A stretch of 10,841 nucleotides of DNA from Flavobacteriaceae bacterium. Its GTDB lineage: Bacteria > Bacteroidota > Bacteroidia > Flavobacteriales > Flavobacteriaceae. Position 1 is the stretch's first letter. Every line of letters starts with the position of its first letter. The stretch spans positions 1 to 10,841 of the forward strand of contig JALZVC010000149.1 in the NCBI GenBank assembly GCA_023301205.1, written 5' to 3'. Made by a program: the position numbers and the translations under genes. The notes under the pieces were generated by a model, which had not been told where the DNA came from, searched no databases, and was given only the letters and a program-made list of their open reading frames with translations. Below are positions 4,822 through 8,333 of this stretch, piece by piece.

Positions 4822-5370
4822 CCTCCACTCCATCGTTTCCATCATCATGCGCATATCATTGCGCACATAGTCTATGGCCGGCAAGAGGGAATCGTAATTA
4901 GGCTTAGAATCAAAATAGAGCGCAGCACTTACAAAATGCTTTATACTATCGGTAAGATGAAACTGCCCTTGAGAAGCGGCATTTCCATTTATCTCATAAA
5001 AGGTGCCGTATGTCTTTTTATCTGGATTAACATACCGGCTCTCTGGCATGTTAATTGCCATAGGTTTGTGATTTAAGGCCAAACGCTCTGCCTCTCTCAA
5101 CTGTGCGTTCATTTTAGCTGTATCGGTGTCGATGTACGTTAAAAAAACAGTCGCTTTCATTTGCGGGTATTCCACTTTTATACCGCAATTTTTATTTACC
5201 AAAACCTCAGCAAATTCGTTTTGTTTAAAAACAAAAGGACAATCTAATTTGACATCGCTATACACTGGTTTTGGAAAACGCAGTCTCAATTTGGCATGTG
5301 GTTTTACCACCACATCATCTTCACAAGAAGCACTTACAATAAGTATTAAAAATACAATCAAGAATCTCAT
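4813..5370 (-). CDS. gldD: Gliding motility lipoprotein GldD
   Basis: The 185-residue protein has a lipoprotein signal peptide: a hydrophobic run at residues 3-14, then lipobox SASC with the acceptor cysteine at 16. It should be lipid-anchored in the cell envelope. The mature part carries the conserved GldD blocks: KPHAKLRLRFPKPVY near the N-terminus, the LDCPFVF segment, YPQMKATVFLTY, YGTFYEINGNAASQGQFHLTDS, and near the C-terminus KPNYDSLLPAIDYVRNDM with a final WRGQ. In Flavobacterium johnsoniae GldD is needed for gliding and is linked to the type IX secretion/gliding apparatus, though its biochemical role is not defined. The ATG overlaps the gldE stop as ATGA (5367-5370), so translation is probably coupled. 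Two internal cysteines (residues 44 and 62) could form a disulfide in the periplasm. Confidence 0.92.
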   Translation of the reverse strand: MRFLIVFLILIVSASCEDDVVVKPHAKLRLRFPKPVYSDVKLDCPFVFKQNEFAEVLVNKNCGIKVEYPQMKATVFLTYIDTDTAKMNAQLREAERLALNHKPMAINMPESRYVNPDKKTYGTFYEINGNAASQGQFHLTDSIKHFVSAALYFDSKPNYDSLLPAIDYVRNDMRMMMETMEWRGQ

Positions 5371-6695
5371 ACAGGTACTCGCGTCAATTTAATTTGTTGT
5401 ATACGTTTGTTATCAAACGCCTCTATGGTAAACGCATAATTATGGAATGTTATTACTTCGTTCTTTTTAGGAAACCCTTTTGATATCTCTAAAAGAAAAC
5501 CAGCAATAGTTTCTGCCTCTCCTTTTTCGTCCTCAAAAATAGAAGGATCTTCCAACTCAATCACTCGGTAAAAATCTTTTAAGGAAGTCTTTCCTTCAAA
5601 TACAAATGTATTATCATCCAGCTTCGAGAATATAAGGTCTTCATCATCAAACTCATCACTAATCTCACCAACAATCTCTTCAATAATATCTTCTAATGAA
5701 ATAAGTCCGCTAGTCCCTCCGTATTCATCTACGACAATAGCAAGGTGCATTTTCATCTCCTTAAATTCATTCAGTAAATCGTCCAGCTTTTTATTTTCTG
5801 GCACAAAATACGCTTCACGTATTAGCGCGTTCCAGTCTAGCTTTTTACGATCTATATAAGGCATTAAGTCTTTTACATAAAGCACCCCTGTTATCTTATC
5901 TATATTCTCCTTAAAAACCGGTATTCTTGAGAAGCCTTTGTCAATAATTTGCGGCATAATCTCAGTAAAAGAAGCTTCTTCATTTAGTGCAAAAATCTCC
6001 ATCCTGGGTTTCATCACCTGCTTAGTGTCTGTATTACCAAAAGTTACAATACCCTGTAATATTTTTTGTTCTTCGCTAGTGGTGTCTTCTTCATCTGTTA
6101 GCTCTAGCGCTTGGTATAATTGATCTACACTTATGTTAGAACTCTGTTTCCCAAAACGATTTTGCAAATACATCGTCATAGACCGCATAGGTGTGCTTAA
6201 TGGAGTAAGTAGAAAGTCTAACACGTTTAGCGGATAGGACATAAAGTAAGCAAAAGACAGTTTGTTACGGGTAGCATATACCTTGGGTAAAATTTCTCCA
6301 AAAAGTAAAATAAGAAATGTAACTGCTACTACTTTTACTAGGAATACCGCGCTCACCTCAAAGAAATACAAATTGATTTCATAACTCCACCCTTCAAACC
6401 ATACTCTGCTTAAGGATTCAAAAAGTAAAACAATAGCGATATTGATAAAGTTGTTCGCAACAAGAATAGTCGCTAAGAGTTTTTTAGGCTTCTCTAGTAA
6501 TTTTTTTACAATAGCAAGTTTTCTTGAAGCACTATCTTCTGCCGTTTCAAGATCAGAACTACTTAATGAGAAAAAAGCCACCTCTGCTCCAGAAATCATT
6601 GCAGAACAACCTAAAAGAATCACGAGCACAACTAGGCTCGGGATTTGCATATAAAATAATGATATTAAAAGGTAACTAGGAGGTTCTATATCCAC
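5367..6695 (-). CDS. gldE: GldE, CNNM/CBS/CorC-type membrane protein
   Basis: The 442-residue gliding-associated protein belongs to the hemolysin-C/CorC family. Residues about 17-190 form the DUF21/CNNM membrane domain with several helices, including SGAEVAFFSLS (35-45) and LFGEILPKVYATRN (131-144). Two CBS motifs follow (about 225-350), ending in the hallmark VDEYGGTSGLISLEDIIEEI (322-341). A CorC/HlyC domain covers about 358-440. CNNM/CorC relatives handle Mg2+ or Co2+, and the role of GldE in gliding is genetic rather than biochemical. The start is taken as GTG (6693-6695), which gives the family-like MD-EPPS opening. A TAA in frame two codons upstream rules out anything longer, and the ATG at codon 16 is the only close alternative. 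The gene lies 61 nt after the second in-frame stop of ssb and overlaps gldD by 4 nt. Confidence 0.92.
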   Translation of the reverse strand: MDIEPPSYLLISLFYMQIPSLVVLVILLGCSAMISGAEVAFFSLSSSDLETAEDSASRKLAIVKKLLEKPKKLLATILVANNFINIAIVLLFESLSRVWFEGWSYEINLYFFEVSAVFLVKVVAVTFLILLFGEILPKVYATRNKLSFAYFMSYPLNVLDFLLTPLSTPMRSMTMYLQNRFGKQSSNISVDQLYQALELTDEEDTTSEEQKILQGIVTFGNTDTKQVMKPRMEIFALNEEASFTEIMPQIIDKGFSRIPVFKENIDKITGVLYVKDLMPYIDRKKLDWNALIREAYFVPENKKLDDLLNEFKEMKMHLAIVVDEYGGTSGLISLEDIIEEIVGEISDEFDDEDLIFSKLDDNTFVFEGKTSLKDFYRVIELEDPSIFEDEKGEAETIAGFLLEISKGFPKKNEVITFHNYAFTIEAFDNKRIQQIKLTRVPV

Positions 6696-6756: not shown

Positions 6757-6813
6757 TTAAAACAGCAAATCATCATTACTAGAATCTGTTTGTTGTGATG
6801 GTAAGGCTGTATT
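6757..6813 (-). pseudogene. In-frame continuation of ssb beyond the stop: acidic C-terminal tip DDLLF
   Basis: Directly after the ssb TAA (6814-6816) the same frame stays open for 18 codons reading NTALPSQQTDSSNDDLLF and then ends in a second TAA (6757-6759). A Gln/Ser/Pro-rich linker closing with acidic residues plus a hydrophobic Leu-Leu-Phe is exactly the C-terminal design of bacterial SSB (DDDIPF in E. coli, DDLPF in many Bacteroidota). A chance match in the right frame, at the right distance and ending in a stop is unlikely. A single substitution (for example CAA to TAA, or TAA read through) separates this frame from a normal 150-residue SSB. The segment is therefore a just-detached tail, a readthrough extension, or an artefact of a sequencing error. 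Confidence 0.8.
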
Positions 6814-7209
6814 TTAAGGCTGCGTTTCTGGTTGTGATTGTGCACCAGTATTATTTGCAGCTTGATTTTCTTCTTTTGGTGTTAAGAAATTAAAATCTGT
6901 ACAGTGTATCTCTGTAGTGTATCGATCTTTGCCTTGGTCATCTTGCCACTTTCTGGTCTTAATACGGCCTTCAACATATATTTTATCACCTTTTTTGAGG
7001 TACTTTTCACAAATTTCTGCCATTTTATTGCGCATTACAATATTGTGCCATTCTACATTATTAATGCGTTCGCCCGTTGTCTTATTTGTGTACGTCTCGT
7101 TAGTCGCTAACGGAAAATTACCTATACTCCCACCACCCTCAAAAAAATGCATTTTAACATCATCACCGGTATGCCCTATTAGCATTACTTTATTTAATGT
7201 ACCATTCAT
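6814..7209 (-). CDS. ssb: Single-stranded DNA-binding protein, tail cut off by TAA
   Basis: The protein is 131 residues to the first stop. Residues 1-112 are a complete OB fold opening MNGTLNKVMLIGH, with NVEWHNIVMRNKMAEICEKYLKKGDKIYVEG (51-81) as the classical SSB core and Trp54 and Trp88 as likely base-stacking residues. It binds ssDNA as a tetramer in replication, repair and recombination. The ATG at 7207-7209 is preferred over a TTG two codons upstream because it gives the usual family N-terminus. After residue 112 there is only a short polar linker ending QPETQP, with no acidic tip. That tip lies beyond the stop in the same frame (6757-6813). As written, the protein would bind DNA but lack the docking site for SSB partners. 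The gene sits 53 nt after mutY, and a -7 box at 7230-7237 may give it its own promoter. Confidence 0.93.
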   Translation of the reverse strand: MNGTLNKVMLIGHTGDDVKMHFFEGGGSIGNFPLATNETYTNKTTGERINNVEWHNIVMRNKMAEICEKYLKKGDKIYVEGRIKTRKWQDDQGKDRYTTEIHCTDFNFLTPKEENQAANNTGAQSQPETQP

Positions 7210-7262: not shown

Positions 7263-8333
7263 TTATACCATCTTAAATGGAGGAAACTTATCAATAAAAT
7301 TACTGATTAAAACAGGCACGGGGCTGTTTTTTATTTCTGAAATGGGAAACATTCCATCTATCTCATCCTTTAAAAGCACAATCCAAAATCGCGTATGTAA
7401 GTGTTGATGTGATAATTTATGAATCACCGCTATTTCATTATAAACAGAAACACTGTCTATAGACCAATGTTTGGTAATACTTCGGAAATTTTCTTCGTTC
7501 AACAATTGCGCTTCATTAACACTATGCTCCGTCTCTACTAATGGAAATTGATATAAATTTTGCCAGATTCCTTTACCTTCTCTTTGTTCAAGTATAGTCC
7601 GTTTAGTTTCGGTTAAGGGCACTAAAAAATTAAAATAACGAGCTCTTACTTTTGCTTTTTTCAACTTAACGGGTAGTACAGGTACTTTATTATTTCCGAA
7701 GGCAACGCAGCTAGCATTGAACACACAACTACTGCAGTCTGGCGATGCAGGCGTACAATGCCTAGCCCCAAACTCCATTAATGCTTGATTGTGGTTACCT
7801 GGCTGGTGGGGGTCTAACAATTTTTGCGCGAGTAACTTAAACTCTTTGATTCCAGGCGTGGTGTTTATAGCTGTTTCAATCCCAAAATACCTAGACAAAA
7901 CCCGATATACATTTCCATCCACGACTGCAGTTGGTTCGTTAAAACAAATAGACGCGATAGCACTTGCCGTATAATCGCCCACGCCTTTGAGTTTTAATAT
8001 TTCAGAAAAAGTAGAAGGAAAAACACCATCAAGCTCATCGACTACATACTTGGCTGCGGTGTGCAAATTGCGAGCCCGAGAGTAATAGCCTAAGCCTTGC
8101 CATAATTTTAAAACTGTTTCTTCATCTGCTTTAGCAAGATCTTGTATCGTGGGGAAAGCCGCTGTAAAAGCAAAATAATATGGGGTTCCTTGTGCAACCC
8201 GAGTTTGTTGTAGAATAATTTCTGAAAGCCAAATATAATACGGATTAGATATACCACGCCACGGTAAATCACGTTTGTTTTGTAAGTACCATGCAATGAG
8301 TGTTTTAGAGAATTGTTTATTTATTTTTGGCAT
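7263..8333 (-). CDS. mutY: Adenine DNA glycosylase MutY (A/G mismatch repair)
   Basis: The 356-residue enzyme removes adenine mispaired with 8-oxoguanine, the second line of the GO system. The N-terminal HhH-GPD domain shows the catalytic Glu38 in LSEIILQQTRV, the WQGLGYYSRARNL block (78-90), the helix-hairpin-helix LKGVGDYTASAIAS (115-128) and the catalytic Asp139 in AVVDGNVYRVLSR. The [4Fe-4S] cluster ligands are Cys193, Cys200, Cys203 and Cys209, with the exact C-x6-C-x2-C-x5-C spacing of MutY. Residues about 228-350 are the NUDIX-like domain that reads 8-oxoG, with LSH at 307-309 in place of the FSH loop. Length and motifs are complete. It is first in the minus-strand group mutY-ssb-gldE-gldD, an order conserved in Flavobacteriaceae, and is divergent from the HU-like gene. 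Confidence 0.96.
   Translation of the reverse strand: MPKINKQFSKTLIAWYLQNKRDLPWRGISNPYYIWLSEIILQQTRVAQGTPYYFAFTAAFPTIQDLAKADEETVLKLWQGLGYYSRARNLHTAAKYVVDELDGVFPSTFSEILKLKGVGDYTASAIASICFNEPTAVVDGNVYRVLSRYFGIETAINTTPGIKEFKLLAQKLLDPHQPGNHNQALMEFGARHCTPASPDCSSCVFNASCVAFGNNKVPVLPVKLKKAKVRARYFNFLVPLTETKRTILEQREGKGIWQNLYQFPLVETEHSVNEAQLLNEENFRSITKHWSIDSVSVYNEIAVIHKLSHQHLHTRFWIVLLKDEIDGMFPISEIKNSPVPVLISNFIDKFPPFKMV

Follow-up and report, generated by a model that had tools for sequence, protein, structure and literature searches.

The window, by which we mean the whole stretch of 10,841 nucleotides that was analysed, is contig C149 of genome G000, a flavobacterial assembly of 1.87 Mb in 298 contigs that is 59.84% complete. 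Its named relatives belong to Flavobacteriaceae, and Flavobacteriales is accordingly taken as its order. Its minus strand carries an ssb gene at 6814..7209, whose 131-amino-acid product consists of an SSB OB fold and a Q-rich linker ending in QPETQP. The start at ATG 7209 agrees with the MxGTLNK of the homologues. In a profile search the product scored above the cut-offs of both PF00436 (E=7.2e-31, 106.8 bits against a cut-off of 26) and TIGR00621 (E=8.1e-39, 133.6 bits against 53.95), which identifies an SSB-type OB domain. Upstream, at 7263..8333 on the minus strand, lies a gene with HhH-GPD, HHH and NUDIX_4 domains that is open throughout and is presumably mutY-like. Downstream, on the same strand as ssb (5367..6695), lies a gene with CNNM, CBS and CorC_HlyC domains, which we take to be gldE-like.

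Translation of the minus strand from 7209 to 6757 gives the 131 residues, a TAA at 6816-6814, 18 further open codons at 6760..6813 (NTALPSQQTDSSNDDLLF) and a second TAA at 6759-6757, and so confirms the in-frame stop between OB fold and tip-like tail that the first-pass annotation had described. The open codons finish in DDLLF (6760..6774), in which codon 6765-6763 encodes Leu where relatives have Pro. The TAA behind them (6757..6759) is presumably the ancestral ssb stop; relatives stop directly after DDLPF. The predicted product ends before the TAA in QPETQP and lacks the acidic tip with its hydrophobic residue, Pro and Phe.

The lost C-terminus and its relatives

An open run of 18 codons by itself carries little meaning, since 20 of the genome's 298 contigs contain 70 long ORFs, and 16 of these have an extension at least as long behind their stop. 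The content of the tail, on the other hand, is not due to chance: across six frames of the 20 contigs and the window, [DE][DE][LIVM]xF stands directly before only one of 14,595 stops, and that one is the ssb tail. In nine congeners the linker end and tip can be aligned with the tail, and on this alignment the tail is the lost C-terminus of SSB. The linker is too variable for the codon that turned into the stop to be told.

The comparison of ssb genes covered 110 loci (L002-L111), of which 109 were read as ORFs and one did not parse; some loci are one genome fetched twice (for example L003 and L032), so that distinct genomes are somewhat fewer than loci. An ending of the form [DEN]DLPF was found in 107 of the 109 ORFs (105 DDLPF, one NDLPF and one EDLPF), and the two without a tip are those of the window and of a congener, G010. 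The list of best relatives comprises 120 proteins. DDLPF is the ending of 114, and five others end in F, one of them (DNVSF) without Pro; the sole tipless protein is P0001. Nearly all relatives thus keep the tip (107 of the 109 loci), and among these loci and listed proteins only P0001 shares the window's end.

The same comparison bears on the state of the tail, which had been described as an intact tip without other decay. This description was wrong. The penultimate Pro of the near-universal DDLPF is kept by each of the 107 loci with a tip and by 118 of the 119 listed proteins that have one. In the window it is replaced by Leu; the tail has therefore a change at a position that is Pro in every tip-bearing locus, downstream of the TAA. 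According to one report (PMC10164576), loss of the SSB tip is lethal in E. coli, and the ssb-113 allele, in which the penultimate Pro of the tip is changed to Ser, weakens partner binding, the SSB113 peptide binding RecG with a Kd of 23 uM as against 3.1 uM for the unchanged peptide. Because the Pro altered in ssb-113 is also lost here, the window's tail would probably work poorly even if it were translated.

The second tip loss is of a different kind. Relative to G001 and G008, the ssb gene of G010 (L009, G010:C7) has a 16-nt deletion that shifts the frame before the tip and leaves DDSPF out of frame, while residues 1-110 of its product are identical to those of G001. Judged from the gene sequence, this congener lost its tip separately from the window's lineage, by frameshift; the deletion is seen in one assembly, where an error is possible, though it lies outside a homopolymer. 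G010, with an assembly given as 77% complete, is also alone among 11 genomes of the genus in having no PriA_C match.

Age of the stop and alternative readings of the tail

P0001 is a protein of 131 amino acids from a 938-base contig. It ends in QPETQP as the window's product does and differs from it at 6 of 131 residues. It is known from its protein sequence and presumably ends by the same stop codon. When P0001 was sought in viral contigs, five loci were found, the best of them 70% identical. Of the first-pass suggestion of a very recent nonsense change, the nonsense change is supported, whereas its great recency is doubtful, given that P0001 has an identical end at six differences.

The age of the split was estimated from the 104-residue OB segment, in which P0001 and the window differ at four positions. 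For the 31 ssb pairs that likewise have four differences in this segment, the fraction of four-fold sites that differ has a median of 0.61 and runs from 0.32 to 0.78; these pairs are non-independent and are drawn from approximately one locus per species, so that close, young pairs are under-represented. The smallest distance, 0.32, corresponds to approximately 0.42 after Jukes-Cantor correction (by hand) and to at least approximately 0.2 on the window's branch, a clock that faster change after tip loss would mislead. In simulations of a neutral tail, DD[LIVM]xF survived along with the open frame and the old stop at a frequency of 0.54, 0.29, 0.095 and 0.014 at 0.05, 0.1, 0.2 and 0.4 substitutions per site, respectively; with 0.1 indel per substitution added, the values were 0.40, 0.17, 0.03 and 0.001. 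With a stop of the apparent age of the P0001 split, neutral survival of the tail would thus be about 3-10%. The tail should in that case have decayed more than it has, which leaves room for a constraint that still acts on it, unless the stop is younger.

A younger stop would fit a nonsense allele that arose recently and may still be segregating, or a defective strain; there would then have been neither compensation nor time for decay. The retained frame, old stop and four of five tip residues agree with this reading, as does the high neutral survival at young ages (0.54 and 0.29 at 0.05 and 0.1 substitutions per site, respectively). P0001, however, has the same end and yet differs at 6 of 131 residues, and the sampled pairs at a P0001-like distance are old, though sampling of about one genome per species passes over young pairs. 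We consider a recent allele unlikely, while it is the alternative that survives best.

Constraint on the tail is what stop-codon readthrough would predict. Regulated or constitutive, it would make a minority of tailed SSB and so set the fraction of partner-recruiting tips per tetramer. In its favor, the frame is open and four of five tip residues persist despite the shared end of P0001, and neutral survival would be as low as 0.095 at 0.2 substitutions per site, or 0.03 with indels, if the P0001 split is deep. Against it, TAA is the commonest ordinary stop, ending 42 of 70 long ORFs in 20 sampled contigs (15 end in TAG and 13 in TGA), a usage that also rules out an altered genetic code. No tRNA reading UAA was found, anticodon tta being absent from 20 ARAGORN calls in this 59.84% complete genome, where 1 of 21 Rfam tRNA matches had no call. 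The class I release-factor frames in the genome comprise 364 and 352 codons, plus a shorter one of 138. Moreover, the tail has lost its penultimate Pro, G010 has lost the tail frame altogether, and among 109 loci and 120 listed proteins the end is common only to P0001, which is known as a protein. No report of readthrough of an SSB stop was found in the literature searched. The earlier proposal of two SSB forms made by readthrough is thus not supported, on account of the common TAA, the lack of a tta tRNA, the lost Pro and the G010 frameshift, and we regard readthrough as improbable and presumably absent.

The tail might instead be kept as DNA or RNA for another purpose, for instance as promoter or leader sequence for the gldE-like gene, and it does sit between ssb and that same-strand gene, which starts at 6695. 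No such purpose has to be assumed to account for the match with the SSB tip at the protein level, and position is the only aspect of this reading that was considered; we hold it to be very improbable. A sequencing or assembly error at 6816-6814, which the first-pass annotation had also raised and which a fragmented assembly (298 contigs, 59.84% complete) might invite, is scarcely credible because P0001, a distinct protein from another contig, stops at the identical residue, and while P0001 could itself end at a contig edge, that edge would have to coincide with the same residue. The truncation is real and natural, and is probably a lineage-level loss rather than a readthrough switch.

DUF3127 as a second tip-bearing protein

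When the genomes were searched for DD[ILMF]PF with a stop behind it, nine of 10 congeners had two such places each; G010 had a single one, and the window's genome had none. Read in frame, one of the two places is ssb and the other a DUF3127 protein (PF11325). The single place in G010 is DUF3127, which is intact there and ends in DDLPF. PF11325 was matched in 57 of the 59 genomes searched (57 of 58 relatives, with loci at L169-L178, L202-L221 and L232-L257). The misses are G054 and the window's genome, where there were no matches in an assembly that is 59.84% complete and so misses approximately 40% of its content. This miss counts against a backup by DUF3127 in the very genome that would need it, where the gene is presumed to be present. 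Nor is such a backup universal, since G054, which is 99% complete, has an SSB without a DUF3127 match.

The ending of DUF3127 is strongly conserved. LPF closes every one of the 56 main copies read: 54 have DDLPF, one has NNLPF and one DSLPF; the main copy of a 57th genome, G030, is split over two contigs and was left out, and the DSLPF copy (G040) has a TGA within its match. Extra copies in G047, G038, G007 and G033 were excluded from this count: those of G047 and G038 are tipless, that of G007 ends in NDLPF and that of G033 in DGMPF. The second copy in G007 (G007:C1:257900-259200, L179/L261) adjoins a longer frame with a weak match and the end LPPPF. Among close DUF3127 proteins, 120 of 121 end in DDLPF.

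Pfam lists DUF3127 as a separate family of unknown function. Profiles and a predicted model give it an SSB-like OB fold, and its link to SSB rests on these two; searches with a single DUF3127 sequence found no SSB in PDB and no NCBIfam family. The sole mention of DUF3127 in the literature searched concerns a Pantoea phage SSB that is said to contain the domain.

Genomes in which no canonical SSB was detected provide a further view of the family. PF00436 had no match at E 0.001 in 49 members of a 196-genome set from the order, for which a completeness of at least 95% was required of every genome except the window's; a divergent SSB below the threshold is possible in these 49. Among the 20 listed of these 49, 16 are genomes of approximately 600 kb from one genus. 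DUF3127 with DDLPF was found in all four PF00436-less genomes tested (G050, G043, G056 and G046). One of them, G050, is 345 kb in a single contig, and the G046 protein is identical to one of Ichthyobacterium seriolicida whose name in the source begins 'Single-stranded DNA-bin'. Its presence with DDLPF in the tested PF00436-less genomes and this SSB-like name, apparently given to it by one source, make DUF3127 a candidate stand-alone SSB. On SSB in Blattabacterium, nothing to the point was among the literature matches listed.

The first-pass annotation had proposed a search for a second full-length ssb; a single PF00436 gene was found in the window's genome, and no second one, at 59.84% completeness. 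A second PF00436-type SSB gene of approximately 110 aa does occur in nine congeners and in G017 (L112-L121), and all 10 of its products end without a tip; rescue by another ssb gene was rejected on these two observations. PriA is intact in the window's genome, open for 834 codons, and, of the published pocket, has matching residues for Trp and Tyr, the other three positions being not confidently mappable. RecO was not found in this genome (G000), a miss that carries no weight at 59.84% completeness.

Proposed loss of the SSB tip and comparison with known systems

The explanation that we favor, and hold to be moderately probable, is a fixed nonsense mutation that left a tipless SSB and an untranslated, decaying tail, tolerated via the tip-bearing DUF3127. 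A nonsense mutation would have gone to fixation in a flavobacterial lineage, so that the main SSB ends short of the tip on which its partners dock. The 131-residue SSB should still bind single-stranded DNA through its OB fold, and the 18-codon tail would be untranslated and would have begun to decay, with the tip Pro changed to Leu. DUF3127, with the same DDLPF ending, may then recruit the SSB partners, and we propose that loss of the SSB tip is tolerated because DUF3127 carries the same tip. The intact PriA, which reads the tip elsewhere, counts against this explanation.

The SSB tip is regarded as the hub of bacterial genome maintenance. A wider reading is that in Flavobacteriales partner recruitment is shared with, and replaceable by, the SSB-fold protein DUF3127, leaving SSB free to lose its tip, as in the window's lineage and G010, or to vanish, as in part of the order; for this reading we hold the scales about even. 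The window's lineage, which retains the OB fold but not the tip, provides together with the second tip loss within its genus a natural experiment on the role of the tip. The larger interest of the finding is DUF3127: if it does the work of SSB, the notion of one SSB as the hub fails for this order.

The window's ssb shares its OB domain and sequence with canonical SSB (PF00436, TIGR00621). Canonical SSB has an acidic C-terminal tip, whereas the window's product has none, the tip lying behind the stop with its Pro changed to Leu. Among flavobacteria, the SSBs of Flavobacterium psychrophilum and Psychroflexus torquis have been characterised and end in DLPF, according to PMC3991886. DUF3127 resembles SSB in its predicted fold and profile and in its DDLPF tip (54 of 56 main copies), but it forms a separate Pfam family and is absent from the recovered part of the window's genome. 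On natural loss of the SSB tip, nothing to the point was among the literature matches listed.

Two laboratory alleles are also close to the window's ssb. E. coli ssb-113, as described in PMC10164576, is changed at the penultimate Pro of the tip, as the window's tail is; there the change is to Ser in a translated tip, whereas here it is to Leu behind a stop. B. subtilis, according to PMC3000357, survives loss of the SSB C-terminus with defects in growth, repair and temperature response, so a backup is not strictly required. Its ssb-delta-35 strain, like the window's lineage, is a living cell with an SSB that lacks the C-terminal docking region; it is an engineered mutant with defects, whereas the loss in the window is natural and apparently fixed.
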